Positions 23,758 to 64,000 of a stretch of DNA of 64,000 nucleotides are shown here, in pieces. The DNA is from Gammaproteobacteria bacterium (GTDB lineage: Bacteria; Pseudomonadota; Gammaproteobacteria; JAABTG01). Below the pieces are notes generated by a model. It saw only the letters and a list, made by a program, of their open reading frames with translations. It was not told where the DNA came from and ran no database searches. The position numbers and the translations under genes were made by a program. The stretch lies in the NCBI GenBank assembly GCA_034522055.1, contig JAXHLS010000002.1, positions 62,001 through 126,000 on the forward strand. Reading direction: 5' to 3'. Position 1 is the first letter of the stretch. Each line of letters opens with the position of its first letter.

Positions 23758-24540
23758 TCAATTATTGAAATCGAAGGCAAGATCGTCATCTTCCCTGAAC
23801 AGCGCATCAAGGGATTCGGGGAGTTTGGCGGCACTGTGGTGCTGGGCATGAAACCTGGCACGCTCGGTGAGCTGATTGAGTTGGCTCATGGAGAACAACT
23901 GAGCATGGGCCAGTGCCATCGGTCCGCCACGCAATTGGGTATAGGCGTCGGCCTCCAGCGCGTTCAGCGCTTCCTCGCTCACTCGGAACAGGCCGTTGAG
24001 TTTGAGCGGTTCCTGCCCTTCACCGCGCTCAATCTGCAGAGGCCACGGCTCGATGACACCGGCATCGCTGAGGGCTTTGGTCGCGGCCAGGGTCACCGGC
24101 CGGTTCTTCTCGCACTGTTCCAGAAAATCCAGCGTCCTGGCTACCTGCTGACCGAGATTGCCGTCGGTATCAAACAGTGGTTCGCCCTGATCGCTGGCAA
24201 AATACGCCTGATCGATACACAGCGCCTTCTGCCCATCCTCGGTGTTGGCCAAGGTGAACGGGTAACCGCGAAGGCTAGCCGGTACGTAGCTGCCCAGCCA
24301 TTTGCCGTTGGGCGCGACGTAGAGATTCGTCTGAAGATCGAGGCTCAGCAGCGCTACGGGTTGGTGGCCCTCCCCCTGCTCGATGAAGCCCAGTGCATAG
24401 TGCGGCAGCAGCTTGGCCAGTTCGGCCAACAGGATACTCGCAACGGCCTGGTTGGTGGCGAAGGCGTAGCCCTCGCGGGGCAGATAGTGCCTGCCAGCGT
24501 GCTGGCTGCGGGATAATGCGATCCACTCTGTCATGGCCAT
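23758..24540 (-). CDS. sapC: SapC-family protein
   Basis: A 260-aa protein with the SapC architecture: EWIALSRSQHAGRHYLPREG, LLPHYALGFIEQGEGHQPVA, LYVAPNGKWLGSYVPASLRGYPF, and a C-terminal LNGLFRVSEEALNALEADAY segment. SapC was first described beside S-layer genes of Campylobacter; its biochemical role is unknown. Its place near the giant secreted protein at 25927 supports an S-layer link. The ATG at 24540 and a second ATG at 24534 are equally possible; neither has a strong ribosome-binding site. Confidence 0.85.
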   Translation of the reverse strand: MAMTEWIALSRSQHAGRHYLPREGYAFATNQAVASILLAELAKLLPHYALGFIEQGEGHQPVALLSLDLQTNLYVAPNGKWLGSYVPASLRGYPFTLANTEDGQKALCIDQAYFASDQGEPLFDTDGNLGQQVARTLDFLEQCEKNRPVTLAATKALSDAGVIEPWPLQIERGEGQEPLKLNGLFRVSEEALNALEADAYTQLRGGPMALAHAQLFSMSQLNQLTERARFHAQHHSAAKLPESLDALFREDDDLAFDFNN

Positions 24541-40358: not shown

Positions 40359-40562
40359 CTAGCGTAGCAGCTTGTCGTCAAGCAGCCACTCGAGCCCGGC
40401 GGATTCAGCCGCCGCCAGCAGAACCGCACGGTTGAGCGCCATGACACGCGCTGCCGGATGAACGTCCGGGTAGTGCCTGCGGAAGAGGTCGTGCACCGTA
40501 ATCACCTTGCGCCCACGATGCCGCGACGCCGAAGACCGCAAGGCAGACGATGGCGCACTCAT
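40359..40562 (-). CDS. Small hypothetical protein (67 aa) coupled to the T1SS adaptor gene
   Basis: Its ATG overlaps the stop of the HlyD-type gene by 4 bp (ATGA), the spacing of a translationally coupled gene. The sequence after residue 17 is well ordered (KVITVHDLFRRHYPDVHPAA, RVMALNRAVLLAAAESAGLE, WLLDDKLLR) and looks LysM-like or helical. The first 17 residues are basic and low-complexity. I do not recognise it. It could be an accessory factor of the secretion operon or a relic tail. Confidence 0.5.
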   Translation of the reverse strand: MSAPSSALRSSASRHRGRKVITVHDLFRRHYPDVHPAARVMALNRAVLLAAAESAGLEWLLDDKLLR

Positions 40563-41920
40563 GGCTCTCGCATTGAGCGTGCCATCATGTCGCTAATCGG
40601 GCGCAACATGTAGGACAACATGGTGCGCTCGCCGGTCTGAATCATCGCCGTCACAGGCATCCCGGCCTGCAGGATCAATCCCTCGCGGCGCAGTGTCTCG
40701 AGCCCCTCCTCGCTGACACGAATACGCGCGAGGTAATAGCGGGTGCCGTCTTCTTCCTGGCGCAGTGTGTCGGCGGACACGGACTGGACCTCACCGGTGA
40801 TGGCCTCGACCAGGGATGTGCCAAGCGCCGAGAAGCGTAGGCGCACATCCTGGCCACTGGTGACGTTGTCGATATCGGCGGGTGCGACGCGGGCGCGCAC
40901 CAGCAGATCTTCGGCGCGTGGAACGATCCCCATCAAGGGTTCACCGGGTGAGATCACACCCCCGAGGGTGTGGACCTTCAACCCGACGATCTGACCGGCC
41001 ACCGGGGCGCGGATGGTCGTTCGCTCGAGCCGCTGCTCAAGCGCCGGAAGCTGTGCCCGGGCCTCGAGCAAACGGCTGCGAACATCGCTGAGCTGCGTTG
41101 CGACCTCGCGATCGTACTCGTTCTGGGTGAGCGTCCGCGAAGCCTGCGAGGCCTGGATCTCCGAGCGCAGCCGCACGATCTCGGAGCGCTGTGCGGCGCG
41201 CTCGCCCTCGAGTTCAAGCTGCCGCCGTCGCGCTTCGCGGAGCTGCTGCTTGTCGGTGAGATCGTCCTCGTAGAGATCACTCCACTCTCTGACCTCTTCG
41301 CTGTACGAGGCAATTTGCTCTTCGACCGAGGCCATCACCTCGCGCAGACCGCTGATTTGCGCGCCGAGCTGCTCGATGCGCTGCGTATGCTGTCCGAGCT
41401 GGCTCGCGAGCGTGGCCCGCCGCGCCTCGAAGAGGATGCGCTGGGTGGTGCGGATCTGCTCGACGTCAATTCCGGGAACGGGGCCATCATGCAGCGTTGA
41501 CGGGAATTCGATCGACTCGGCACCCTCGGCCTCGGCCTGCAGCCGGGCACTCACGGCCGTATTCGTGAGGAGTCGTGCGCGCGTGGTCTGAACCTCAGAC
41601 GCCCGCTGTGTGCGATCGAGTTCGATGAGCACGTCGGACTCGCCCACCACATCGCCCTCGCCGACACGGATCGCGCGGACAATGCCGCCTTCCTGGTGCT
41701 GGACCGTCTTGGTGTTCGACGACACGGCGAGCTGGCCCTCGGCAATCACCGCTCCCGACAATGGCGCCGTCGCCGCCCAAATACCAAAGACACCGAACAC
41801 GGCGATCACCACAATCAAGCCGATGAGCGCATAGCGGCGGTAGTCGCCGGACGGCATCGGCATGACACCCTTGCCGCCGGCGGCGTCTATTGTGCTTCCC
41901 GCGTCGATCTGGTCAAACAT
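40559..41920 (-). CDS. Type I secretion periplasmic adaptor (HlyD/PrtE family)
   Basis: A 453-aa membrane-fusion protein. There is one N-terminal membrane helix (residues ~27-49, RYALIGLIVVIAVFGVFGIW), then a lipoyl half-motif with VQHQEGGIVRAIRVGEGDVV and a long periplasmic alpha-hairpin (about residues 110-290). The second lipoyl/beta-barrel half follows (IRAPVAGQIVGLKVHTLGGV; PGEPLMGIVPRAEDLLVRAR). This is the PrtE/RsaE type found with S-layer and protease exporters. It overlaps the ABC gene by 8 bp, so both are made together. Confidence 0.93.
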   Translation of the reverse strand: MFDQIDAGSTIDAAGGKGVMPMPSGDYRRYALIGLIVVIAVFGVFGIWAATAPLSGAVIAEGQLAVSSNTKTVQHQEGGIVRAIRVGEGDVVGESDVLIELDRTQRASEVQTTRARLLTNTAVSARLQAEAEGAESIEFPSTLHDGPVPGIDVEQIRTTQRILFEARRATLASQLGQHTQRIEQLGAQISGLREVMASVEEQIASYSEEVREWSDLYEDDLTDKQQLREARRRQLELEGERAAQRSEIVRLRSEIQASQASRTLTQNEYDREVATQLSDVRSRLLEARAQLPALEQRLERTTIRAPVAGQIVGLKVHTLGGVISPGEPLMGIVPRAEDLLVRARVAPADIDNVTSGQDVRLRFSALGTSLVEAITGEVQSVSADTLRQEEDGTRYYLARIRVSEEGLETLRREGLILQAGMPVTAMIQTGERTMLSYMLRPISDMMARSMREP

Positions 41921-43697
41921 TCGCGCTGCCCGCGGGGTTGTTCGCCGTAAGCTGCGTCACGCGATTGTATTGCGCCACCGCCTGGCCGCTACCGGGCTGG
42001 AGCGCGGTGAAGCGCGCAAGCACCTCGTCCCGGCCGCCGAACGCGGCCATCTGGCCCTCACGCAACACGAGGATATTGTCGACCTGTTTCAGGATGGGCC
42101 GACGATGGGTGATCACCATGACCGATGCGCCTTCCTTGCGCAGGGCGTCGATGCACTGCACGAGCGCCTGATCGCCCTCTTCGTCGAGGTTGGAATTGGG
42201 CTCATCGAGCACGATCAGTTGCGGCTTTCCGTAGACCGCCCGTGCGAGCGCGACGCGCTGGCGCTGGCCTGCCGAGAGCACGCCGCCGCCGGAGCCAATG
42301 AGCGTATCGTAGCCATCGGGCAGGTGCCGAATAAGTTCATCCACACCAGCCCGGCGACCAGCGGCGATGACGGCGTCCGAGTCGACCGCACCGAAGCGCG
42401 CAATGTTTTCCGCCACCGTGCCGTCGAACAGCTCGATATCCTGGGGTAGGTACCCGATGTGCGGGCCGAGCTCGTCGCGATTGTACTGCTGGATCTCCGC
42501 ACCATCAAGCCGCACCGAGCCGCCAAGAATGGGCCAGACCCCGAGCCCGGCACGCGCGAGGGTAGACTTACCGGAGGCACTCGGCCCAATGACCGCGACC
42601 ACTTCGCCGGGATCGACACTGAACGAGACCCCCCGCAACGTCGGGGTACGCACACCAGGCGGTGCCGCCACGAGGCGGTCGAACTGCCATGCCCCGTGCG
42701 GGGGGGGCAGCGGCATATGCCGCTGCTGTTCCGGATAGTTGGCGAGCAGAGCCTCCAGGCGCTCATAGGCTGTTTTCGCGGCACCGATCTGGCGCCAGCT
42801 TCCGATGAGCTGGTCCACCGGCCGCAACCCCTGGCCCAGGAGGATCGCGCCGGCGACGATACCACCGGCAGACGTCTCGCCACGGATGGCCAGGATCGCC
42901 CCAACACCGTAGGCAAGCGCCTGTGCTCCGAGGCGGAACGTGCGGCTGAGATGAGAGAACGTCCCGGCGCGGTCGCTGGCAAAGGCCTGATGCTGGATAA
43001 CCTGCTTCTGGCGCTGACCAAGGCGCTCGCGAATGGCGGGTGTCATGCCCATGGCGTGAACCACTTCGGCGTTGCGCATATTATCCGAGGCGAAGCGCCG
43101 CGCCTCGACATCCGCCTGGTTGGCCGCTGCCAGCGGGTTGCGCGTCACCAGCTCATTGATGACGGCAAGTATCGACAGCACCACCACGGCAACCACGCCG
43201 TAGATACCAAGCCAGAAGTGAAAGAGGAACATCACGCCGATGTAGATCGGAATCCATGGGGCATCGAAGAACGCGAGCAGTCCCTGTCCGGTGAGGAACT
43301 GCCGAAGCGTGGTCGCATCGGACATGGCCTGCGCGCTATCGCTACCGGGTCGAACGAGACTTTCCCGGAACATGGCGTCGAAGACGCGATCGCTGAGATC
43401 GCGATCGAGCCGCACCGACACGCGCGTGAGGATCCGGGAGCGGATCACCTGCAATACGCCGAGCACGACGAACATCACCACTATAATCAGCGTGATCATG
43501 CCGAGCGTCTCTAAACTGCGGCTGCTCATTACCCGGTCATAGACCTGGAGCATGTAGATCGCCGGCAGGAGCATGAGCAGGTTGATGAAGAAGCTGAACA
43601 CGCCAACGCTGGAGAACGCACTACGGCACGCCCTGAGCGCCCGCTTGAGTTCGGACTCGTTCGCTGCCTTTGTGCCGGCGTTGTTCGCAGGCTTCAT
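41913..43697 (-). CDS. Type I secretion ABC permease/ATPase (PrtD/RsaD family)
   Basis: A 594-aa fusion of a six-helix membrane domain (about residues 30-300) and an ATPase domain. Walker A GPSASGKST starts at residue 371, signature LSAGQ is at 474-478 and Walker B is IVLDEPNSNLD near 496. It lacks the N-terminal C39-like domain, as is typical of PrtD/RsaD exporters whose substrates have an uncleaved C-terminal signal. The giant protein at 25927 is the obvious substrate in the window. It is first gene of the adaptor operon, and the promoter should lie in the 444 bp before it. Confidence 0.95.
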   Translation of the reverse strand: MKPANNAGTKAANESELKRALRACRSAFSSVGVFSFFINLLMLLPAIYMLQVYDRVMSSRSLETLGMITLIIVVMFVVLGVLQVIRSRILTRVSVRLDRDLSDRVFDAMFRESLVRPGSDSAQAMSDATTLRQFLTGQGLLAFFDAPWIPIYIGVMFLFHFWLGIYGVVAVVVLSILAVINELVTRNPLAAANQADVEARRFASDNMRNAEVVHAMGMTPAIRERLGQRQKQVIQHQAFASDRAGTFSHLSRTFRLGAQALAYGVGAILAIRGETSAGGIVAGAILLGQGLRPVDQLIGSWRQIGAAKTAYERLEALLANYPEQQRHMPLPPPHGAWQFDRLVAAPPGVRTPTLRGVSFSVDPGEVVAVIGPSASGKSTLARAGLGVWPILGGSVRLDGAEIQQYNRDELGPHIGYLPQDIELFDGTVAENIARFGAVDSDAVIAAGRRAGVDELIRHLPDGYDTLIGSGGGVLSAGQRQRVALARAVYGKPQLIVLDEPNSNLDEEGDQALVQCIDALRKEGASVMVITHRRPILKQVDNILVLREGQMAAFGGRDEVLARFTALQPGSGQAVAQYNRVTQLTANNPAGSANV

Positions 43698-44141
43698 AAG
43701 AGGACCCCAAGAGCAGTTTGACCAATCCGGTGCGGAGCGGAGCGCTCGCTACACGTTGCGGAGCACAAGGCTGCTAACGCGCCGGAATCGAGGAGCCGGC
43801 CCCATGCACCGCGACATGCTTGCACGGCCAGAGCCGCGATGAGATGAATCGGCAGTGATCGCGTGGCGCAGGCGAGCGCGCTACCGTCGACCGCAACGGG
43901 CGCGAAAATTAAGCGGGCAGTATAGCGGGACGCCTCGCGCTGGTAAACCAGTCAACGCTTTAGTGCAAGGCAAGATTGCACCACTTTCCGTGTGGTTATT
44001 CGGCGCGCGGAGCCGCTCGCAGGCGAATGGAAGGGGCCAGGCGATGAAATCCAGTCACGGGGCGAGAAAATATTTTAAGTGCATGAAAATAATGATAAAT
44101 GATCGGCTTATGCGGTTGTCATGCACATTAGTGCAGGAAAA
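43698..44141. promoter_or_regulatory. 444-bp gap between the TolC-like and ABC genes
   Basis: No gene is supported. The part from about 44050 to 44130 is AT-rich (AAAATATTTTAAGTGCATG, AATAATGATAAATGATCGG) against a GC-rich background, and GTGCA recurs at 43963, 44080 and 44132. It probably holds the promoter of the secretion operon; I cannot pick a single hexamer pair. Confidence 0.35.
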
Positions 44142-45575
44142 TCAGGGCGTGCGTGGTGCCACGGGCGCGGTCTCAGCAACAGGACCGAGCACGACGGTGT
44201 CCGTGAGATACGTTTGCTCCAGCGCTTCGAGCCGGGGCGGATCAAGCCGGCCCGTCAGCGAGTCGATCCGGACCTGAGCAATAAGACGATCATAGACGGC
44301 ATTGGTGAGTTCGCGGCGGATCTCGAACACCCGCGCACGCGCCTCGAGGAATTGGACCTGGTCGCGCAGTCCGGAAGCGAGCGCTCGCTCGGTCGCCTCG
44401 GCGCGGGCCTCGGCGGTGTCAAGCGAACGCTGCAGCACCATGATGCTGCGCGTGGCAGTACGCAACTCGTTCGCGATGCGGCGGACTTCAACAAACGCCT
44501 GCCGACGCGCATCATCAAGCCGCGCCTGCGCGGCATTGGCGCGCGCCTGCGCTTCGTCGACGCTCGCCTTAACGCCGCCGCCGGCGTAAAGCGGAACCTC
44601 CAACTGCAAAAACACCCGCGTTTGCTTACCGCTGACGACCTGATCGGTGCGGTCGGTATCACTATGCCGTGCTTGCAGGGACACGGTGGGATAGTGGCCC
44701 GAGCGTTGCACCTCGATCGCGTCGCGCTGCACCGCGAGCCGTCCCGCGGCAACATCCACCGCGGGGCTTCGCTCCATAGCTTCCTGGACCCACTGGTTGA
44801 GCGTTTCCGCAGACGGTAGCTCACCGGCATCGACCCGTTCGACATCGGCGGCCTGCAGCACACGAACGGATGCGCCCACCAGCCGCTCGAGTTCGATCAC
44901 GGCCGCCTCGAGCGCATTGCGCGCGCGCTGGACCTGCGCTTCGACCTCCTCCTTGCGCACTTGCGCATCGAGCAAATCGATCCGGCTCGACAATCCCCGC
45001 TTATGCCGCCCCTCAAGCTGGTGCACGCGAACGCCAAGCGCCTCGAGCTCTGACTGCGCGAGTGCGAGATTCCCGCGCTCCCGCAACACGGTGAAATAGG
45101 TCTCAGCCACGCGCAGCATCAGCTCCTGACGGGTCAATTCAAGCTGGGTACGCGCAAGTTCGGTCTCACTCTTCGCACGCTCGACGCCTTTCCATGCCCG
45201 CCGGTCGTACAGCGGCTGGGTGACGTTGAGTCCGTAGCTGGTGCTGGTCTGTTCCAGCTCTCGGGTTGTCTGTTCGAACGCGAGTGTCTGTGGGTTTAGC
45301 TGCTGCCCCGTGGTCTCGAATTTCGAGTAGCCGAGCGAGCCATCGACCGAGATGCGGGGGTAGAGTTCGGCCTGGGCCTGCTCTATGGCCCGCCCCGCAG
45401 CGTCAATGGCGTAGCGATTCGCACGGGTCGAGGGTGCCCCGGCATCCGCCCACTGGACAGCGGTGGAAAGCGACAGCGGGGCGGCCTCCTGAGCATGCCC
45501 CTCCGGCGAAATTCCCCCGAAGGCGCCTGCGGCCAGGACAGCCAAGACAACGTAAGCAACTTCCAAGCGTGTCAT
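44142..45575 (-). CDS. TolC-family outer membrane channel of the type I system
   Basis: A 477-aa protein with a signal peptide (MTRLEVAYVVLAVLAAGAFG followed by an AQEA cleavage region) and two duplicated outer-membrane efflux repeats rich in coiled-coil helix: YPRISVDGSLGYSKFETTGQ, VTQPLYDRRAWKGVERAKSE, then YPTVSLQARHSDTDR and LQLEVPLYAGGGVKASVDEA. This is the trimeric beta-barrel and periplasmic-tunnel component. The start is the ATG at 45575; the longer frame to 45986 encodes no signal. It lies on the same strand as the adaptor and ABC genes but 444 bp away, so it may have its own promoter. Confidence 0.93.
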   Translation of the reverse strand: MTRLEVAYVVLAVLAAGAFGGISPEGHAQEAAPLSLSTAVQWADAGAPSTRANRYAIDAAGRAIEQAQAELYPRISVDGSLGYSKFETTGQQLNPQTLAFEQTTRELEQTSTSYGLNVTQPLYDRRAWKGVERAKSETELARTQLELTRQELMLRVAETYFTVLRERGNLALAQSELEALGVRVHQLEGRHKRGLSSRIDLLDAQVRKEEVEAQVQRARNALEAAVIELERLVGASVRVLQAADVERVDAGELPSAETLNQWVQEAMERSPAVDVAAGRLAVQRDAIEVQRSGHYPTVSLQARHSDTDRTDQVVSGKQTRVFLQLEVPLYAGGGVKASVDEAQARANAAQARLDDARRQAFVEVRRIANELRTATRSIMVLQRSLDTAEARAEATERALASGLRDQVQFLEARARVFEIRRELTNAVYDRLIAQVRIDSLTGRLDPPRLEALEQTYLTDTVVLGPVAETAPVAPRTP

Positions 45576-45803
45576 GTAGGCCGGTTCTCCAGATCTCTGT
45601 GCGGCAAATAGCCAGGCGCGGCCACATCGGCACGTGCCCCGGCTTTGGAATGCATGACGGCGTGGCACGCGACCACCGGGTTCAGATAATCTCCACCGTC
45701 GGCGAGGCCGACAGCATAACAACACGACCGCGACGCCGAAACGCCCAGCGCCCGTGCGGCGAATAAATGAGCATACACTCCACAACAGGCAGTGACAGCA
45801 ACC

Positions 45804-46919
45804 ATGCGGGTGCTCCATGTCTACAAGACGTACTTTCCCGAGACCCAGGGCGGTCTCGAGGAGGTTATCCGCCAAATTGCCCTCGAGACAACAGCTCGGG
45901 GTGTGACCAATCGCATTCTGACGCTTGCCGCCGATGGCGGGCCGACGACCATCGACCGCCCCGAGGCCCGCGTCGTACGCTGCCACCGGGACGCGGAGAT
46001 CGCCTCAAACGGTCTCTCGATGCAGGCGCTGCCCCGGTTTCGCGGCCACGCCCAATGGGCCGATCTCATCCATTACCACCATCCCTGGCCCTTCGCTGAC
46101 CTCCTCCACTGCCTCTTCCGCCCAAGCGCACCGGCGCTCGTGACCTACCATTCGGACATTGTGCGACAACGCCGCCTGTTCGCACTCTACCGCCCCCTCA
46201 TGCACCGCTTTCTCGCGCGCGTCGATCGCGTGGTGGCGACCTCCGGGAACTATGCGGCATCGAGCCAAGTGCTGCAGCGCTATCATCAAAAGACCGAAAT
46301 CATCCCCATCGGCGTCGATTCCGCCTCCCAACCCACCGCTACGTCCGCTGAAATCGCTGCGATGCGGGCTCGCGTCGGAAGCGGTTTTTTTCTGTTTATC
46401 GGCGTCCTGCGCAGCTACAAGGGGCTGGACACGCTGGTCGACGCCGCTACCGGGACGGACGTTCCCGTGGTCATCGCGGGCGATGGCCCCGAGCGCGATG
46501 CCTTGCAACGCCGAGCCAATGCGGCCGGGTCGGGTCGTGTGCATTTCCTGGGGCGGGTCAGCGACAGCGAGCGCTCGGCTCTTTTCGCTCTGGCCGGTGC
46601 GGTGGTACTGCCCTCGAATGCCCGCTCCGAGGCGTACGGTGTCGCGTTGGTCGAGGGTGCGATGAACGCGCGCGCTCTCATCTCCACGGAACTCGGCACC
46701 GGGACGACGTTCGTCAACCGCGACGGTGAGACCGGCCGCGTCGTTGCCCCGAACGACGTGCACGCGCTCCGCGCTGCGCTTGAGGAGTTCGCCAACCACC
46801 CTGAGCGCACCCGCGCCCTCGGTGTGGCCGCCCGTGAGCGTTACGAGCGCCTGCTCACCGCCGACCGTATGGGGAGCGCCTACATGGCGCTGTATGAGCG
46901 CCTTCTCGGGATCGCCTAG
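45804..46919 (+). CDS. Glycosyltransferase family 4
   Basis: A 371-aa GT-B enzyme. VLHVYKTYFPETQGGLEEVI is the acceptor-side glycine-rich loop, and FFLFIGVLRSYKGLDTLVDA the start of the donor-binding domain. VVIAGDGPERDAL is followed by LPSNARSEAYGVALVEGAMN, the E-x7-E motif of retaining GT4. The ATG at 45804 begins at the conserved N-terminus; a GTG 12 bp upstream is possible. No strong ribosome-binding site is seen. It is divergent from the TolC gene and probably mannosyl- or rhamnosyl-type, acting on the surface polysaccharide. Confidence 0.92.
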   Translation: MRVLHVYKTYFPETQGGLEEVIRQIALETTARGVTNRILTLAADGGPTTIDRPEARVVRCHRDAEIASNGLSMQALPRFRGHAQWADLIHYHHPWPFADLLHCLFRPSAPALVTYHSDIVRQRRLFALYRPLMHRFLARVDRVVATSGNYAASSQVLQRYHQKTEIIPIGVDSASQPTATSAEIAAMRARVGSGFFLFIGVLRSYKGLDTLVDAATGTDVPVVIAGDGPERDALQRRANAAGSGRVHFLGRVSDSERSALFALAGAVVLPSNARSEAYGVALVEGAMNARALISTELGTGTTFVNRDGETGRVVAPNDVHALRAALEEFANHPERTRALGVAARERYERLLTADRMGSAYMALYERLLGIA

Positions 46920-56523: not shown

Positions 56524-57720
56524 CTAACCCGTCTTTAAAAGAGTCTGCGCCATCTCCAGCACGCCTATGGCCTGTACATCTTCCGTTACCGGATAGCGCT
56601 CCTCGCCGGCATAAACCACAAAGCTCTTGTCCGGCTGAATGTCCTCGCAGGCCTGGTAAAATCCTCTGCCCGGCTTGGCCGAGAGCGCCCGTTTGATCTC
56701 GATCGCCCAGCGGCCGGCCCGACCGGGCAACTCCAGCACCAGGTCGATTTCCGCACCGGCCGAGGTCCGGTAGAAGCTGGCCTGGGTCCGCTCCGGCGCG
56801 ACCGCAAGCAGGTTTTCGATCACAAACCCTTCCCAGCTCGTCCCGACCACAGGATGGCCGGCCAGCTCATTGTAATCCTCAATCCCGAGCAGCGCGTGCA
56901 CGAGACCACTATCCCGCACATAGACCTTCGGCGACTTCACCAGGCGCTTGCCGATATTCGCATGCAAGGGCGGCAGCCGCCGCACCAGCAACAGGTCCAC
57001 CAGCAGGTCGATGTACTTGGTCACCGTCGGCGCGGTCAGGGACAACCCCGAGGCCAGCCGCGAAGCGTTCACCAGCGTGCCCTGTCCGTGTGCAAGCATC
57101 GTCCACAGACGCTCCAGCGTTTCAGCCGGGATGCGCGGGCCGAACTGCGGCACGTCCCGCTCCAGATAAGTCCGGATAAAGCTCCGGCGCAACTTGAGGC
57201 TGTCCGGGTCGTTCTTCGCCAGAAAACTGTCCGGGAACCCGCCCCGAATCCAGAGCCGGTCGAGCGCGCCCTCCCCTCCTCCGGCTTCGGTAACATCGAG
57301 GGGCTGCATATCAACATATTCAATGCGGCCGGCCAGGCTCTCACCGGACTGGCGCAGTAGGTCGGTGGAGGCCGATCCCAGGATCAGAAACCGCCCCGTC
57401 CGTTTGCCTTTTCGGCGGCCCTGGTCGATCACGCCCCGCAAGGTCTGGAACAGTTCCGGCACGCGGTGGATCTCATCGAGCACCACCAGCCGGTCCTCGT
57501 ATTGCTTCAAAAACAACCCGGGGCTGGAAAGCTTCTCCCGATCGTCACTGTCCTCCAGATCGAGGTACAGCGCGTCCCGCTCTTCAGCAATGTCCTGGGC
57601 CAGCGTGGTCTTGCCAACTTGGCGCGGGCCAATCAGCGCCACCGCCGCCTGGCGGTCCAGTGCTTCCGTCACATGCTGTCGTATGCGTCGCTCTATCATC
57701 CTTGCATTTTGTAATTCCAT
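56524..57720 (-). CDS. AAA ATPase with DUF4143 C-terminal domain
   Basis: A 398-aa protein. AVALIGPRQVGKTTLAQDIA is Walker A, DRLVVLDEIHRVPELFQTLR Walker B and RFLILGSASTDLLRQSGESL the sensor region (AAA_14). The C-terminal part is a DUF4143 nuclease-like fold: GTSWEGFVIENLLA, SAGAEIDLVLELPGRAGRWA with D and E residues and IEIKRALS containing the ExK. The family is common, often next to mobile genes, with unknown targets. It lies inside a disrupted beta-CASP gene on the same strand. The ATG at 57720 or 57699 (MIERR) may be used. Confidence 0.88.
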   Translation of the reverse strand: MELQNARMIERRIRQHVTEALDRQAAVALIGPRQVGKTTLAQDIAEERDALYLDLEDSDDREKLSSPGLFLKQYEDRLVVLDEIHRVPELFQTLRGVIDQGRRKGKRTGRFLILGSASTDLLRQSGESLAGRIEYVDMQPLDVTEAGGGEGALDRLWIRGGFPDSFLAKNDPDSLKLRRSFIRTYLERDVPQFGPRIPAETLERLWTMLAHGQGTLVNASRLASGLSLTAPTVTKYIDLLVDLLLVRRLPPLHANIGKRLVKSPKVYVRDSGLVHALLGIEDYNELAGHPVVGTSWEGFVIENLLAVAPERTQASFYRTSAGAEIDLVLELPGRAGRWAIEIKRALSAKPGRGFYQACEDIQPDKSFVVYAGEERYPVTEDVQAIGVLEMAQTLLKTG

Positions 57721-57748
57721 CTTTCAATTCGCAAGGATATTTATCCTC

Positions 57749-58062
57749 GTAGTTGACCACCCTGCCCCCGGCGGCCATGCCGCTGGCGGCGATGACCACA
57801 GCGGGGCGGCCGGTCTCGGCCAGGGTGCGACCGACGCTGAAGGCCGGGATGATCACCGTGCCACCGTTCTCCAAGGCCCGTTCGACGGCCTCGCGCAGGC
57901 GCCGCTGGCGCTCGTGGCGGCGTTCGTGGTTGCGATCGCCGTAGGTGGATTCCAGCACCAGGCAGTCGGCGTGGTGCGGCGCGCGCGGGGCGCGAAGCAG
58001 CGGGGTGTTGCCGGGGCCGAGATCGCCGGAGAAGACCACGCGCCGCTTTTTGGGTTTGTATC
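57749..58062 (-). pseudogene. Central relic of the second beta-CASP RNase gene
   Basis: The minus-strand frame runs KKRRVVFSGDLGPGNTPLLR, LVLESTYGDRNHERRHERQR, ENGGTVIIPAFSVGRT and then directly TGRPAVVIAASGMAAGG RVVNY. Relative to the intact gene about 85 codons between VGRT and the GHPAVVIAASGM equivalent are missing in frame. The zinc-binding N-terminal part is absent and the C-terminal part resumes at 56505, beyond the ATPase gene. Confidence 0.82.
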
Positions 58063-58095
58063 CAGCGTCGCAACGGCTTGGTAGGTTAAGTGGGG

Positions 58096-58149
58096 TATCG
58101 CCCAGGGGGCTGGGCTCCTACCTATCGGCCAGGGGGCTGGCCTCCTACG
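58096..58149 (+). repeat. Two tandem REP-like stem-loops (unoccupied intron site)
   Basis: TCGCCCAGGGGGCTGGG-CTCCTAC directly followed by CTATCGGCCAGGGGGCTGGCC-CTCCTAC, written here in parts. This matches the sequence on both sides of intron E without the intron. Confidence 0.88.
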
Positions 58150-58156
58150 TAGGCGC

Positions 58157-58699
58157 TCATCGTCCGGCGATGGCGAACAGGGCGGCGATGAGGACCACGG
58201 TCTGGCCCGCCAGCAGGCTCACCACCCAGCGCACAATGGAGGCCCTGGACTCGGCTATGCCGGTGCGCACCTGCTCGATCTCCAGGCGCAGCCGGCCCTC
58301 GGTTTCGCCGATCTCCCTGCGCACTTGCTCGATCTCAAGGCGCAGCCGGCCTTCGACCTCGGCGATCTCCTGGCGCACCTGCTCGATCTCCAGGCGCAGC
58401 CGGCCTTCGACCTCGGCGATCTCCTGGCGCACCTGCTCGATCTCCAGGCGCAGCCGGCCTTCGACCTCGGCGATCTCCTTCCGCAGGCGGCCCTCCGCCT
58501 CGACGATCTCCTTGCGGGTGATCTCTATCTCTTTCTGCAGGCGGAGTTCTGTCTCGCTGAGCGCGGTACGGGTGGCCAGATCCTTGACCTCCGGATAGCG
58601 CTCCTCCATGCGCTCGAAGGCCTCGGCGATGATCCGCGCCCGGGTCTTGTCGTCCGGGGCCGAGGTGAGGGCTTCGTAGAGCTGAATGGGCGAGGTCAT
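58157..58699 (-). CDS. Coiled-coil protein with C-terminal membrane helix, copy 2 (expanded)
   Basis: 180 aa; a paralogue of the 133-aa protein at 54310 with the same N-terminus (MTSPIQLYEALTSAPDDKTR) and membrane helix. The difference of 47 residues lies entirely in the coiled coil: extra 18-residue units EIAEVEGRLRLEIEQVRQ plus an 11-residue piece. The frame is kept throughout, so the expansion is tolerated or selected. Function unknown. Confidence 0.75.
   Translation of the reverse strand: MTSPIQLYEALTSAPDDKTRARIIAEAFERMEERYPEVKDLATRTALSETELRLQKEIEITRKEIVEAEGRLRKEIAEVEGRLRLEIEQVRQEIAEVEGRLRLEIEQVRQEIAEVEGRLRLEIEQVRREIGETEGRLRLEIEQVRTGIAESRASIVRWVVSLLAGQTVVLIAALFAIAGR
58267..58480 (-). repeat. 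54-bp tandem repeats inside coiled-coil gene copy 2
   Basis: About four consecutive 54-bp units, the middle ones almost identical at DNA level (e.g. CTCGGCGATCTCCTGGCGCA repeated at 58-kb positions spaced 54 bp). Copy 1 has only two diverged units. Confidence 0.9.
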
Positions 58700-58763
58700 G
58701 GAATAAACGATAGCAACACCCTTGACGGGCGGCAACGGAGTTTTAGTGTCCCGAATGACCCTT

Positions 58764-59129
58764 GCGGCAAGGTTTCGCGGCCCCATCTACTGCACCGAGG
58801 CCTCGGCCGTGCTGCTGCCCCTGGTGCTCGAAGATGCCCTCAAGGTGGGCTTCACTCGCGACAGGTCGTTGATCGAGCGCTTTCTCCACCGCATCCAGGG
58901 CCAGATGGTCGCCCTGCCCTACAAGCAGTGGCGGGCGGTGGGGGATGGCCTCGACATCAAGCTGCATCCCGCCGGCCATATCCTCGGCTCGGCCTATGTG
59001 GAGGTGCGGATTCAGGCCGGAGCCAAGCGCGAGTTGCAACGGCGGCTGCGGCGCGAGGTGCCCGAGGCAGATGTGATAGTGGCCGGTGCGGCAGGCAACC
59101 CCGATGGCTGGACGGATGGGCGCGGATAG
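58764..59129 (+). pseudogene. Truncated duplicate of the beta-CASP RNase gene
   Basis: It corresponds to the intact gene from about 55173 (FRGPIYCTEASAVLLPLVLE) to VRIQAG, then jumps directly to AKRELQRRL and ends WTDGRG. The zinc motif (upstream) and the whole beta-CASP core are deleted. A 399-bp deletion at its left edge fuses it to the upstream region of coiled-coil copy 2. It cannot be active. Confidence 0.92.
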
Positions 59130-59134
59130 GGAGG

Positions 59135-59372
59135 CATCGGCCAGGGGGCCGGCCTCCTACGGCGCATAACCTGTAGGAGACGAGCCCTCTCGGCGATTTG
59201 GCCTGAAGAACCATCGATTCGCCGCTGAACCAACCCCCCTCGGCCAGGGGGATGGCCTCATCGCTATCGCCCAGGGGGCTGGGCTCCTACATCACACAGC
59301 TACAACCGGGGGGCATCGGCCAGGGGGCTGGCCTCCTACGGATTAGCGGCCAGAGGGGTGGGCTCCTACGCC
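59135..59372. repeat. Dense cluster of REP-like stem-loop repeats
   Basis: About six elements: forward at ~59136-59160, 59240-59258, 59269-59291, 59315-59339 and 59344-59370, and one reverse at ~59176-59201 (GTAGGAGACGAGCCCTCTCG). Several are degenerate. No gene in the 325 bp between the pseudogene and the next gene. Confidence 0.85.
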
Positions 59373-59455: not shown

Positions 59456-60526
59456 ATGAATGCTGGATTTTTCCCCCGGTCCGACCCGGAAGCCGTGGAC
59501 CCGGAAGCCGAAACCGGCCCGAAAGCCCAGGCCCAGATCAAAGAGCTGTTGCGTCTCGCAGACGAGCCCTGGGTCTATATCGATGAAATGCAGGCCCACG
59601 GCGCGGTGATGGCGGGCTGCGAGCGCTTCATGGACCGGCTGCTCGCCTTCTACCGCGCCTGGGGCGACGCCACGGTGGCGGTGGACCTGCCCCCCAAACA
59701 GGTGTTCCGGCAGGCGGGGGTACGCGGCGACTTCCGGGTGATGCCCTGCGTGCTGGGGGACGATGGTCTCAAGATCGTCAAGGTCATCGGCACCAACGAG
59801 GAGGAGCGGCAGGTCCGGGACAAGATCTGCGTCGGAAAATCCCTGCTCGTCGATCCCTACGACAACCATGTCTATGCGGTCCTGGACGTGTGCGCCCTGT
59901 CGTCCTTCCGCACCGCGGCGGTGAGCGTACTGGCCCTGCGCCTGTGCGGCGCCGGCGGCGACCCCGTGGGGCTGGTGGGCATGGGCCGGATCGGCTTCTA
60001 CACCGCCTGCATCCTCCACCGCTGGCTGGGCGTGGACCGCATCCTGGCCGCCGATCCGGACCCCCGCCGGCGGGCGGACTTCAGCGCCCTGTGTGCCCAC
60101 TACCTGCCCGCTTTGGCGGTGGAGATGCTGCCCCTGGCGGCGGTGACCGCCGCCAGCAACGCCCTGTTCCTTGCCACCACGTCTGAGGAACCCCTGGTGG
60201 GGGCAGACAACGGTGCCCACCTGGGGTTCGTCGCCAGCGTCGGCGCCGACGCGGACAACCTGAGCGAGGTGGACGCCACCCTGCTGGGCAGCCACCGGGT
60301 GGTGGCGGATTCCCGGGACTCCATGCGCCTGGGGGACATGCGGCGCTGGGCCGATGCGGGCCTGCTGAAGCCTGGCGCGGTGGCCGAACTGCGGGATCTG
60401 GCGGCTGCCGGACCGCCGACGGCGCCCCAGTGGCTGTTCATCTCCACCGGCATCGCGGTGCAGGACGCCCTGGTGAACCGCTTCGTTTACGAGGCATGCG
60501 CCGCCCCCAGGGGGGAGCGGGCATGA
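59456..60526 (+). CDS. Ornithine cyclodeaminase/mu-crystallin family enzyme
   Basis: A 356-aa NAD(P)-binding protein. The family segment GDDGLKIVKVIGTN with HVYAVLDVCALSSFRTAAVS (the LDA-LT-RTAA signature region) precedes a Rossmann motif VGLVGMGRIGFYTACIL, and VGADNGAHLGFVASVGADA is the usual cofactor/substrate loop (normally G-x-H-I-x-x-x-G). The GTN-EEERQVRD stretch replaces the P-x-N common in cyclodeaminases, so the substrate may differ. Relatives include SbnB, which makes a diaminopropionate precursor. The ATG at 59456 is the first plausible start; its ribosome-binding site is weak. It overlaps the ligase gene by 4 bp. Confidence 0.85.
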   Translation: MNAGFFPRSDPEAVDPEAETGPKAQAQIKELLRLADEPWVYIDEMQAHGAVMAGCERFMDRLLAFYRAWGDATVAVDLPPKQVFRQAGVRGDFRVMPCVLGDDGLKIVKVIGTNEEERQVRDKICVGKSLLVDPYDNHVYAVLDVCALSSFRTAAVSVLALRLCGAGGDPVGLVGMGRIGFYTACILHRWLGVDRILAADPDPRRRADFSALCAHYLPALAVEMLPLAAVTAASNALFLATTSEEPLVGADNGAHLGFVASVGADADNLSEVDATLLGSHRVVADSRDSMRLGDMRRWADAGLLKPGAVAELRDLAAAGPPTAPQWLFISTGIAVQDALVNRFVYEACAAPRGERA

Positions 60527-62349
60527 CCCCGGGAAGTGGCCGCGCCCCGGAGAGGCCCCGGCGCCAGACCACCCTGGTGCTCACCCTGCCCCTGTGGCAG
60601 CCGGACGCAGCGGCCCTGGAGCGCCTGGACCGGCGGCTGGAGACGGTGCTGGAGATCCCGGTGCCCGAGCCGCCCGCCCCGGCGGCCGGCGCCATTCGTG
60701 GTGGCGGGGACGAGGACCGCGCGGCGGGGCTCGCCTGGCGCTGCCAGCTGCTGCTGCGCGCCTTCATGCAGACGGCCGCGGTGCCCCTGTTCCGGCCGGG
60801 GCGGCTCCTGGAGTTGGCCCGCGCCCCGGACGGCGGCTGGTCGGCGGCGGTGGAAGTGGACAGCATCGACCACATCCCGGCCGAGGTCTATCGGATGACG
60901 GCCTCGGCCGCGGTTCATGTGGCACGGGTTCTGGCCGCCGAAGAACTCGCGCGGGAGCAGGTGGAGGACCTGCACCGGGTGCTGGATCGGGAACTGTTCC
61001 GGCCCCTCGGACAACGGGTGAGTTCCGGCCAGTCCACCCTGCCCGTGCTGCGGGCCGCCGCGGAACAGGGCATCCCTTTCATCCACCTGGACGGCGGTGT
61101 CTACCAGCTTGGCTGGGGCAGCCGCGCCCGGCGTATGGACCGCGGCTCCTGCGACGGCGACAGCGCCATGGGCAACAAGCTCGCCCAGAACAAGCTGTGG
61201 TCCGCCAACCTGCTGCGCTCGGCGGGCTTGCCGGCGCCCCGTCACGGGGCGGCGGAAACGGAGCGCGAGGCCCGCGCCCTGGCCCGCACCATCGGCTGGC
61301 CGGTGGTGGTGAAGCCCGTGGACCGTGATCGGGGCGAGGCGGTAAGGGTGGGGATCCGCGACGAGGGGACCCTCGCCGAGGCCTTCCGGGCGGCCCACCA
61401 GGCCTCCCCATCGGGGCAGGTGCTGGTGGAGCGTCAGGCACCGGGGATCTGTTACCGTCTGCTGGTGGCCGAGGGGCGCCTGCTCTATGCCACCGCCCGC
61501 TGGCCGATATCCATCCAGGGCGACGGCCGCACCCCCGTGGGCGAACTCATCGAGGTCGCCAACCGGGCCCAGGCACAGCGCCCGCCCTGGCTGCGCGAGG
61601 AGCGGTTTCCGGCGGATGCCGCGGCCATCGAGGCGATGCGCGCCGCAGGCTACCCGCTGGACTCTGTGCCCCCGGCCGGCACATGGGTGCCCCTGCGCCC
61701 CATCGAGACCACCCGCGACGGGGGCCGCTTCGAGGACGTCACCGAGAGGGTCCACCCGGATAACGCGGACCTGGCGATTCGCGCCGCGCGCCTGTTCGGG
61801 CTCGCCATGGCCGGTGTGGACCTCATTACCGACGACATCGAAGGCCCCTGGCACGCGAGCGGCGCCATCGTCAGCGAGGTGAACTTCTCGCCCCTGTTCG
61901 GCGTCACGGCGATCTCACAACGCCACTTGCCCGCCTTCTTCGCCCACCTCCTGGAAGGAGACGGCCGCATCCCGGTGGAGGCCGTGTTAGGGCACGAGGC
62001 GGCGTGGGGTTGGGCGCAACGACGCCAGCGGAAGTACGCCGAAGCGGGGAAAAGGTGCTTCGCCACCAGCCACGATTTGACTTTGGACGCCCGGGGGGCC
62101 CCCCTGCCCTTTCCCTTCGATGGGCTCTATCGGCGCTGCCGGGCCCTGCTCCTGGACCCGCGGGTGGACACCCTGGTGCTCGTGGTCCAGGACGACGAGC
62201 TGGCCGACACCGGCCTGCCGGTGGACGTCATCAGCCGGCTCGAGATGGCCGCGGGGGGTGACGGCGAGGACCTGCGCCGCACGCGGGCGCTGCTGCAGGC
62301 GAAGGGTGCCATGGGGCCGGACCCGGCTCGAACCTACAGCCCGACCTAG
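60523..62349 (+). CDS. Cyanophycin-synthetase-like ATP-grasp ligase lacking the Mur-ligase P-loop
   Basis: A 608-aa protein. Residues ~1-170 resemble the CphA N-terminal domain. QGIPFIHLDGGVYQLGWGSR then NKLAQNKLWSANLLRSAGLP opens the ATP-grasp domain (about 180-490) with WPVVVKPVDRDRGEAVRVGI, VERQAPGICYRLLV, and the metal site in GVDLITDD ... VSEVNFSPLFG. After it, where CphA has GTNGKT, this protein reads IPVEAVLGHEAAWGW, but later segments such as LLLDPRVDTLVLVVQDDELA still resemble the Mur-ligase part. The Mur-type half is therefore shortened and without a P-loop. It starts on the ATGA overlap with the upstream dehydrogenase-like gene, suggesting one pathway that forms a peptide or amide bond. 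Confidence 0.85.
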   Translation: MTPGSGRAPERPRRQTTLVLTLPLWQPDAAALERLDRRLETVLEIPVPEPPAPAAGAIRGGGDEDRAAGLAWRCQLLLRAFMQTAAVPLFRPGRLLELARAPDGGWSAAVEVDSIDHIPAEVYRMTASAAVHVARVLAAEELAREQVEDLHRVLDRELFRPLGQRVSSGQSTLPVLRAAAEQGIPFIHLDGGVYQLGWGSRARRMDRGSCDGDSAMGNKLAQNKLWSANLLRSAGLPAPRHGAAETEREARALARTIGWPVVVKPVDRDRGEAVRVGIRDEGTLAEAFRAAHQASPSGQVLVERQAPGICYRLLVAEGRLLYATARWPISIQGDGRTPVGELIEVANRAQAQRPPWLREERFPADAAAIEAMRAAGYPLDSVPPAGTWVPLRPIETTRDGGRFEDVTERVHPDNADLAIRAARLFGLAMAGVDLITDDIEGPWHASGAIVSEVNFSPLFGVTAISQRHLPAFFAHLLEGDGRIPVEAVLGHEAAWGWAQRRQRKYAEAGKRCFATSHDLTLDARGAPLPFPFDGLYRRCRALLLDPRVDTLVLVVQDDELADTGLPVDVISRLEMAAGGDGEDLRRTRALLQAKGAMGPDPARTYSPT

Positions 62350-63018
62350 AGCCACACCACCACCGCCTCTTCCTACGGCACGGCTGTAGGTCGGTTGCTC
62401 TCGGCAACCGACATCCGCGCCCGCAAACCGCCGCATTTCGTCGGCTGCCAAGAGCAGCCGAACTACGCCTCTGTCCTTCTCCCCCGGGAAATGGGAAAGG
62501 GGAAATGGGAAAGGGGAAATGGGAAAGGGGGAATGGGAAAGGGGGAAAGATTACCACCCGTGCGTCCGCTCTGCTGACGCCGAAACGCTGAATCCGCTGC
62601 GCCTTTTCGAACTGCCACTCCTCCCTGACCTTCTCCCTTTTCGCGTCACTCGCGTCTTTCGCGGTTACGCTTTTTGTAGGTCGGGATTCATCCCGACATT
62701 AAACCCAACCGCACGCACCACGGGCCGGGGTGGAACCCGCCGGCGTTGGGTGTCGGACTGAAGTCCGACCTACAGCCCGACCTACAGCCTCCCATCGGCC
62801 AGGGGCTGGCCTCCTACGGATTATCGGCCAGGGGCTGGCCTCCTACGGGCCTACGGGGTGTTGGGCTGGCGGCTGTTGGGGTTTGTACCTCACCCAAAGG
62901 GAGAGGGGGAGTTCGTGCTTAGCGAGTTTCACGTTCAAGGAGATTTTTTTTGTTGCTCGGCCTAAGATTGGCGTAGCGTCAATCGTCCGTAATAGGATTA
63001 CAGCAAGGGGGGGGATCC
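62350..63018. repeat. Repeat-filled intergenic region before the TpsA gene
   Basis: 669 bp without a supported gene. It holds GTAGGTCGG-type palindromes (62385-62411, 62674-62698, 62746-62785), an A/G tandem repeat (62486-62549), two REP-like stem-loops ATCGGCCAGGGGCTGGCC plus CTCCTAC (62794-62817, 62823-62847), and an inverted copy of the dispersed repeat seen at 47111 (62892-62936). Confidence 0.8.
62486..62549 (+). repeat. Purine-only tandem repeat
   Basis: About five units of GGAAATGGGAAAGG with small length changes; G/A on the plus strand apart from one T per unit. Likely a slippage-prone microsatellite. Confidence 0.88.
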
Positions 63019-64000
63019 ATGAGTTCTCGGCACAGTCTGGGGTTGGGGTTCATTGTGGGCGTTCTGACCGCCTGCCCGGCCATGGCCAATCCTCTGGATC
63101 CCCATGTGATACATGGGAGCGCGAGCTTTGCGCGCCAGGGCGGGGCGCTCACCGTCACCAACAGTCCTGGCGCGATCATCAATTGGCAGGGCTTTTCCAT
63201 TGCCCGGGGCGAGTTAACCCGCTTCCTCCAGCAGCATGCAGACAGTGCGGTGCTGAACCGGGTCACCGGTTCGGACCCATCGCGGATCCTCGGGCAGTTG
63301 CATTCCAATGGTCGGGTGTTCCTGGTGAATCCTCACGGCATCGTGTTCGGCCCCGACGCGGTGGTGGACACGGCAGGACTGGTGGCCTCGACGCTCAATA
63401 TCTCGGATGAGGACTTCCTCGCCGGGAAACTGGCGTTTCAGGGCGACGACCCGGGGGCCATCGAGAACGCAGGGCTCATCCGGGCACGCGGTGGGGACGT
63501 GTACCTGATTGCCCCCGAGATCCGGAACAGCGGCGCCGTAGTTGCCGAAGGGGGGAACATCCTGCTGGCGGCGGGCCGCAGGGTGACCATCACGGACCTG
63601 GGCGCCGGCGGGGTGTACTTCGAGGTGCAGGCGCCGGAGGACCGGGTGGTGAACCTGGGGGAGCTGCTGGCCAGGGGGGGTGCGGTGCGCGCCTTCGCGG
63701 GGAGCCTGGAGCACGCGGGGGACATCCGCGCAGACAGCCTCTCGGTGGATGAGACGGGCGTCGTGGTGCTGGAGGCGCGGGGCAATGTGGAGTTGCTGGC
63801 GGCCTCCACGGTGAGTGCCTCGGGTCCGGCGGGGGGCGCGGTGCGCGTCGAGAGCACGGGTGGTGACGCGGTGGTGGCGGGCCGGGTGGCGGCCACGGGT
63901 TCGGAGGGGGCCGGCGGGGATGTCCGGCTGCTGGGTAAGCGCGTGGGGCTCTTCGGGTCGGCCCAGGTGGATGCCTCGGGTGCCGCGGGGGGTGGCGAGG
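63019..64000 (+). CDS. Two-partner-secretion exoprotein (TpsA, filamentous haemagglutinin-like), N-terminal part
   Basis: Open to the end of the window (327 codons seen). There is a signal peptide (MSSRHSLGLGFIVGVLTACP AMA), then a TPS domain: FARQGGALTVTNSPGAIINW, FSIARGELTRF, LHSNGRVFLVNPHGIVFGPD with the NP-x-G-I/V-x-x-G motif, and STLNISDEDF. After residue ~150 come beta-helix repeats (IENAGLIRARGGDVYLIAPE, VVAEGGNILLAAGRRVTI). AAGGGGGG lies about 8 bp before the ATG. The protein would pass a TpsB outer-membrane pore, whose gene is not in the window. Adhesin or surface role by family. Confidence 0.92.
   Translation, partial: MSSRHSLGLGFIVGVLTACPAMANPLDPHVIHGSASFARQGGALTVTNSPGAIINWQGFSIARGELTRFLQQHADSAVLNRVTGSDPSRILGQLHSNGRVFLVNPHGIVFGPDAVVDTAGLVASTLNISDEDFLAGKLAFQGDDPGAIENAGLIRARGGDVYLIAPEIRNSGAVVAEGGNILLAAGRRVTITDLGAGGVYFEVQAPEDRVVNLGELLARGGAVRAFAGSLEHAGDIRADSLSVDETGVVVLEARGNVELLAASTVSASGPAGGAVRVESTGGDAVVAGRVAATGSEGAGGDVRLLGKRVGLFGSAQVDASGAAGGGE

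Follow-up and report, generated by a model that had tools for sequence, protein, structure and literature searches.

Two adjacent genes that encode an ornithine cyclodeaminase (OCD)-like protein and a ligase resembling cyanophycin synthetase (CphA) raise the question of which product such enzymes could make together, and whether they belong together at all. Both genes, P0001 and P0002 (Table 1), lie in a 64,000-nt stretch of a Gammaproteobacteria bacterium genome (GCA_034522055.1, contig JAXHLS010000002.1, positions 62,001 to 126,000), hereinafter the window. We find that the pair is a real, conserved and undescribed module assembled from known folds, and discuss below its possible role in amide-bond formation. 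The two-gene operon proposed in the initial annotation is borne out, as the genes are co-directional and overlapping, and the pair recurs in other genomes. The ATGA overlap of the P0001 stop and the P0002 start makes translational coupling likely; a Shine-Dalgarno-like run, GGGGGGAG, precedes the P0002 start. Scanning of the locus for promoters and terminators yielded no signal above chance.

Recurrence of the gene pair

Approximately 28 loci of the P0002 ligase clade have been identified by scanning the genome collection. The profile search for the pair, suggested initially as a check, has found it in five more genomes (two from Campylobacterota, a single gammaproteobacterium and two of the Desulfuromonas class), that is, together with the window, in six genomes from three phyla. 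Homologues of P0001 with 40–54% identity adjoin the ligase in Poseidonibacter (L066), Sulfurimonas (L069), a gammaproteobacterial metagenome-assembled genome (L075) and Desulfuromonas (L087). As these four pairs were found via the ligase, separate searches were made with the OCD profile alone. Among 398 Pseudomonadota genomes a match was observed only in the window's own genome, among 249 genomes of the L066 phylum, only in that of L066, and among 194 genomes of the L087 class, in that of L087, in a new genome, G1050 (54%), and, as a distant homologue, in G1065. The OCD gene of G1050 (L148) stands directly after a ligase of the same clade (44%) and is followed in one gene run by genes for a 186-aa protein and SapC. 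In these searches, every close member of the P0001 subfamily had the ligase as a neighbour, and either gene order occurs: the ligase gene comes first in L066, L069, L087 and L148, and the OCD gene, in the window and L075, the genes overlapping, abutting or being 45 nt apart. The recurrence of the pair and its re-discovery in the OCD-only search rule out chance neighbourhood. A search of plasmids for OCD plus ligase retrieved only CphA, Ngg and distant OCDs. A family of small proteins with the YxPxEDRxRLSG motif is common to L075:13226-13906(-) and L148:7633-8193(-), beside type I secretion system (T1SS) or SapC genes and the ligase–OCD pair.

Active sites of the ligase and its partner

For analysis of P0002 we used the residues of TeCphA1 (PMC9427784) as the reference and mapped them by alignment onto P0002 and its clade; in TeCphA1, ATP is bound by Lys220 and Lys261, Asn394 holds Asp, and the alpha-carboxylate of the Asp being added is held by Arg458. 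Residues were counted in 32 clade members (L049 joined from two split frames, L069 and L082 being contig-end fragments) and 11 CphA1. The P0002 residues K224, K264, R312, R326, D433, E452 and N454 correspond to Lys220, Lys261, Arg309, Arg323, Asp431, Glu450 and Asn452 and are conserved almost throughout the 32 members, so that the ATP lysines (K224, K264) and the Mg-binding residues (D433, E452, N454) expected of the ATP-grasp superfamily are all present. On the other hand, R270, T396, R398 and G460 stand where CphA1 has H267, N394, S396 and R458: throughout the clade, His267 is replaced by Arg (29/32), Asn394 by Ser or Thr (29/32) and Arg458 by Gly (26/32), and Ser396 varies, whereas Asn394, Ser396 and Arg458 are present in 11/11 CphA1.

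The Mur half is degenerate. The P-loop G[TS]xGK[TS] is found in 0/32 clade members compared to 11/11 CphA1, the position of Lys499 is occupied by Ala in 27/32 members, and only about 130 residues follow position 480 in P0002 (about 75–145 across the clade), compared to about 390–470 in CphA1, the Mur C-lobe of P0002 being missing. At the Mur Glu558 equivalent the alignment is unreliable and no assignment was made. The HxxEH motif, known from the N domains of primer-making CphA1, is absent from the N domain of P0002 and from the clade members compared. Alignment with TeCphA1 thus confirms the initial description of a ligase with retained N and ATP-grasp domains, replaced GTNGKT and a shortened Mur half, and, as both the Mur P-loop and C-lobe are missing, its restriction to one active site, that of ATP-grasp. 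Neither of the two outcomes that would have spoken against that description was observed, as there is no intact Mur ligase in P0002 and the pair is conserved beyond this genome. The lack of the P-loop does not by itself make P0002 unusual, since CphA2 already has such a layout. The clade-wide loss of the P-loop together with the retained ATP-grasp residues shows that this feature exceeds chance. The aligned residues show that the ATP-grasp site of P0002 is complete, that its Mur ATP site is lost and that its acceptor pocket is re-made, the residues by which CphA1 holds free Asp being replaced.

Cyanophycin synthetase models match residues 125–568 of P0002 (3.5e-67), yet with 227 bits against the cut-off of 877; the score for TIGR02068 (CphA1) is 199.5 bits, the cut-off being 850. 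P0002 matches CphA1 and CphA2 structures by sequence (8fxh, 1e-34), and its AlphaFold2 model (pLDDT 92) has the CphA1/CphA2 fold, Foldseek retrieving 7wae (CphA1, TM-score 0.68 by query) and 7ta5 (CphA2, 0.64/0.66).

In the ligase tree, built without cyanobacterial CphA2 sequences, the P0002 clade (31 rows, support 100/100) has a long stem and lies apart from CphA1, which, with the second CphA of tandem pairs, falls on the other side. Its neighbours are the truncated CphA-like proteins L051, L052, L080, L081, L097, L108 and L133; they are P-loop-less and retain Asn394, and L051 is found among P450, TauD and AMP-ligase genes. The OCD-linked ligases are scattered and require four changes under parsimony, at least two being forced by well-supported branches, hence the linkage has probably been formed, re-formed or lost more than once.

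P0001 belongs to the OCD_Mu_crystall family (PF02423; 5e-18, 65.5 bits, Pfam gathering score 24 bits) and is the only member found in the 5.1-Mb genome. It scores far under all NCBIfam equivalog cut-offs, ornithine cyclodeaminase equivalogs included. The proposed comparison with SbnB proved unspecific, as P0001 has 48.6 bits with the SbnB model TIGR03944 (equivalog cut-off 326.9), and pyrroline-2-carboxylate reductase, iminosuccinate reductase, mu-crystallin and alanine dehydrogenase match it equally or better. In the OCD family, Arg, Lys and Asp have catalytic roles, going by structures of alanine dehydrogenase and OCD. The initial claim of altered substrate motifs holds in part: the Rossmann GMGRIG, Arg94 and Asp265 are retained, while the P0001 subfamily has an unusual invariant segment VKxIGTN...VGK (DKIxVGK), and in one relative Gln stands at the position equivalent to Lys106.

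Other partners and surroundings of the clade

Proteins of the aKG-HExxH type (TIGR04267 members, or proteins related by BLAST to the two tested) are encoded in eight clade loci, seven of which also contain a small peptide with N-terminal LDxxKLxGF and a core of the GAKIG type, which several of the peptides carry as repeats (Table 1). GAKIGKP is repeated in the L059 and L049 peptides, and L072 has AKVG-repeat open reading frames (ORFs). Near CphA1, no GAKIG-type peptide was found in 51 loci, apart from one unrelated pattern match, and the two such peptides tested are not covered by any NCBIfam model. From this gene content, the peptides, the aKG-HExxH enzymes and the sister ligases probably constitute an undescribed class of ribosomally synthesized and post-translationally modified peptides (RiPPs). 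A search for TIGR04267 proteins in five genomes with the OCD pair (window, L066, L069, L075, L087) found none. PKHD dioxygenases are present in two clade loci (L048/L063, L082), and in L057, L062, L067, L068, L070 and L065b (L065:4006-7209) one continuous ORF, about 1070–1110 aa long, encodes both an N-terminal adenylation domain and the CphA-like ligase. At the OCD-type pairs themselves, a PapB-like radical SAM peptide-maturase gene (L087:6062-7156(+)) is located 7 nt upstream of the Desulfuromonas pair, and a gene for a VioC/clavaminate-synthase-type hydroxylase (L069:2052-2999(+)) follows and overlaps the Sulfurimonas OCD gene. Our literature search, with limited reach into subscription papers, yielded no paper that connects CphA-like ligases with OCD, RiPPs or SapC.

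SapC, type I secretion and adhesin genes are enriched near the clade ligases, albeit not obligate. Adhesin-like ORFs of at least 400 aa are observed in 11/30 deduplicated ligase loci compared to 3/51 CphA1 loci (p 0.0007), and SapC, near five deduplicated clade loci compared to 0/51 (p 0.007), the CphA1 control loci differing taxonomically from the ligase loci. The list of Pfam domains in large neighbours is headed by DUF4214 and autotransporter domains, neither being among the leading families of the control. No conserved C-termini that could be ligase sites were seen in the neighbouring giant proteins. In the window, the region 23758–46919 comprises genes for SapC, a giant protein of 2167 aa containing FYLANNPDVAKAV repeats, a WbsX/RgpF glycosyltransferase, an ABC exporter and the T1SS, and looks like a locus of a secreted, perhaps glycosylated surface protein; the T1SS ABC protein shares 46–54% identity with its counterparts next to the L066 and L075 pairs.

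Table 1. Features of the window and precursor-like peptides of sister loci (positions in the window, unless a locus is given)
Feature	Position	Strand	Details
P0001, OCD/mu-crystallin-family NAD(P)-dependent enzyme	59456..60526	+	356 aa
P0002, CphA-like single-active-site ligase	60523..62349	+	608 aa
ATGA overlap, P0001 stop/P0002 start	60523..60526	+	
P0002 N domain	60523..61017	+	residues 1–165
P0002 ATP-grasp domain	61018..61962	+	residues 166–480
P0002 Mur-core remnant	61975..62247	+	residues 485–575
GHEAAW at the Mur P-loop GTNGKT position	61990..62007	+	residues 490–495; Lys499 position is Ala494
Short palindromic repeats GGCCAGGGGGCTGGCCTCCTAC	59136..59369	unassigned	clustered upstream of the pair
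Second site of GGCCAGGGGGCTGGCCTCCTAC-type repeats	62802..62863	unassigned	between the pair and the haemagglutinin gene
Filamentous-haemagglutinin-type exoprotein gene, start	63019..64000	+	2258 aa; next gene downstream of the pair; context
SapC-family gene	23758..24540	-	context; SapC recurs near OCD/ligase pairs elsewhere
Type I secretion system	40559..45986	-	HlyD 40559–41920, ABC 41913–43697, outer membrane factor 44142–45986; context
LDxxKLxGF/GAKIG peptide	L059:1018-1239	-	
LDxxKLxGF/GAKIG peptide	L049:7557-7796	+	
LDxxKLxGF/GAKIG peptide	L060:10873-11055	-	
LDxxKLxGF/GAKIG peptide	L065:10782-11003	-	
LDxxKLxGF/GAKIG peptide	L050:6575-6706	-	
LDxxKLxGF/GAKIG peptide	L071:8799-8939	+	
LDxxKLxGF/GAKIG peptide	L079:9300-9530	+	

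Elsewhere in the window, an MBL/beta-CASP gene (54893–56374) is followed by broken partial duplicates of the same gene (57584–59129), and near-identical group II intron-type reverse transcriptases, some of them broken, are found at 8652–9731, 13731–14342, 17695–18580, 49808–50887 and 52875–54188.

Proposed function, its alternatives and known systems

The reading that we prefer, giving it about even weight for and against, is that the pair could be an amide-forming tailoring module, by which a non-standard amino acid would be joined through one ATP-driven bond. The OCD-like enzyme would produce this amino acid, by NAD(P)-dependent chemistry of the imino-acid reductase, cyclodeaminase or Dap type, and its product would be the substrate of the ligase; the ATP-grasp site would then convert a carboxylate to an acyl phosphate and, in each turnover, form one bond between it and an amine, the degenerate Mur half having a purely structural role. 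The OCD and acyl-phosphate steps would follow established OCD and ATP-grasp chemistry. As Arg458 and Asn394 are lost, the expected acceptor is not free Asp but an amine with no free alpha-carboxylate, be it on a peptide, on a protein or a small amine. Perhaps it is a ribosomal peptide or a surface or secreted protein; this step, the weakest one, derives from the neighbouring genes and from the sister ligases located by RiPP-like precursors. The tailoring module is favored by the recurrence of the pair, the retained ATP-grasp residues with the re-made acceptor pocket, the predicted fold, the enrichment of SapC and adhesin-like genes, and the other partners of the clade (aKG-HExxH, PKHD, VioC/clavaminate-synthase type, radical SAM), which modify amino acids or peptides. 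More tentatively, we suggest as possible that P0002 is a branch of a widespread new family of CphA-derived single-site peptide- or protein-tailoring ligases, with the HExxH/LDxxKLxGF/GAKIG arm being an undescribed RiPP class, and the OCD arm putting an OCD-made amino acid on a peptide or surface protein exported via type I secretion or autotransport.

Several observations weigh against the tailoring module. No activity is known for the pair, and the OCD substrate is not readable from sequence; the distant OCD homologue of G1065 (34–35%, L149:2415-3443(-)) has no ligase anywhere in its genome, and a motif search beside the OCD-type pairs found no RiPP-like precursor. The enrichment of surface-protein genes was measured against the taxonomically different control mentioned above, the SapC and T1SS genes of the window are 13–37 kb away from the pair, and short repeats part the pair from the haemagglutinin gene. 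The Stutzerimonas-type autotransporter is present in 11/198 genomes of its family, only one of these 11 having the ligase, and the second ligase of this family (L159) stands alone. An obligate link to the autotransporter is not supported, in view of the 10 of these 11 genomes without the ligase and of the solitary L159. SapC and a PaaK-like AMP ligase are encoded near the distant OCD gene of L149.

Formation of a small free dipeptide or amide (a metallophore, signal or antibiotic-like compound) without any protein acceptor seems unlikely to us, if still to be reckoned with: such dipeptides are common products of ATP-grasp enzymes, P450, PaaK-like AMP ligases, TauD and chorismate-binding enzymes are found beside sister or outlying ligases (L051, L082), and the adenylation domains fused to several clade members and the hydroxylase after the L069 pair would fit as well. 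However, the OCD-type pairs have no abutting dedicated exporter or regulator, the large N domain and the Mur remnant are retained, as in enzymes handling peptide chains, and the enrichment of SapC, T1SS and adhesin genes would be left unexplained. A catalytically inert or regulatory CphA relic beside an unrelated dehydrogenase would suit the dead Mur half, and the sparse clade would suit mobile cargo, but we regard it as very unlikely, given that the ATP-grasp catalytic residues are near invariant in highly diverged sequences and the OCD linkage recurs across phyla.

There is hardly any probability left for P0002 being a proteobacterial CphA2 that re-polymerises beta-Asp-Arg dipeptides into cyanophycin. 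Its size, layout and matches to 7ta5 and 8fxh agree with CphA2, but the clade sequence is equally far from CphA2 and CphA1, and OCD has no known role in cyanophycin. CphA1, expected in the same cell with CphA2, was not found in the OCD-pair genomes checked (window, G000; L066, L069, L075 and L087, G748–G751). A cyanophycin role is unlikely both because of this absence, on which the rejection of cyanophycin metabolism rests, and because CphA2 keeps the Asn394/Ser396 equivalents that the clade has lost. The osmolyte pathway considered initially, with a dipeptide like N-acetylglutaminylglutamine amide, appears extremely improbable: Ngg, a related ATP-grasp enzyme making N-acetylglutaminylglutamine, matches P0002 weakly (3.6e-36), but no acetyltransferase domain or amidotransferase partner is seen beside the OCD-type pairs, OCD is as rare as 1/398 Pseudomonadota genomes, and the contexts are instead those of surface or secreted proteins and of peptide- or amino-acid-modifying enzymes.

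If the tailoring reading is true, the cyanophycin synthetase scaffold, with half its chemistry gone, has been re-used as a general amide-bond tool with changing amino-acid- or peptide-modifying partners. The pair is a defined two-gene test case for new non-ribosomal modification, and the sister HExxH/GAKIG loci, with known precursor sequences, are a testable candidate RiPP class and a plausible route to something larger.

Among known systems, P0001 shares the fold, GxGxxG and the Arg94/Asp265 equivalents with pyrroline-2-carboxylate reductase (6t3e), the iminosuccinate reductase BhcD (6rqa), alanine dehydrogenase (1omo), SbnB (4mp3) and CmnK (7cxs), but with only 17–24% identity in the fold search, forming a separate subfamily with VKxIGTN and DKIxVGK. 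Peptide beta-hydroxylase RiPP systems of the aKG-HExxH type resemble the sister loci, where the ligases adjoin TIGR04267 proteins and precursor-like peptides, whereas neither was found with the OCD-type pairs; in the pfl cluster the partners are of the MNIO-nitroreductase and GNAT kinds, and the main text describing it names no ATP-grasp or cyanophycin protein (PMC12636437).

CphA1 (7wac–7waf, 7lg5) and P0002 have in common the ATP-grasp core with the equivalents of Lys220, Lys261, Arg309, Arg323, Asp431 and Glu450, while P0002 has neither the GTNGKT P-loop nor the full Mur domain and lacks the Mur ATP site, the M lid and the HxxEH primer site, Arg458 and Asn394 being replaced in most clade members. 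Where proteobacteria have cphA genes in tandem, the second CphA (encoded by the upstream ORF in L091, L100 etc.) is likewise CphA-derived with a degenerate Mur half, but forms its own clade within the CphA1 side (100/100) and, unlike P0002, retains N394 and HxxEH. The layout of CphA2 (7ta5, 8fxh/8fxi) is that of P0002: an N domain, an active ATP-grasp and what is left of the Mur core, the P-loop and C-lobe being absent, in about 600–640 aa and with a similar predicted fold. Still, 7ta5 keeps the Asn394/Ser396 equivalents (ANIS), mostly missing from the P0002 clade, and the partners of this clade, unlike those of CphA2, are OCD, HExxH or PKHD proteins.

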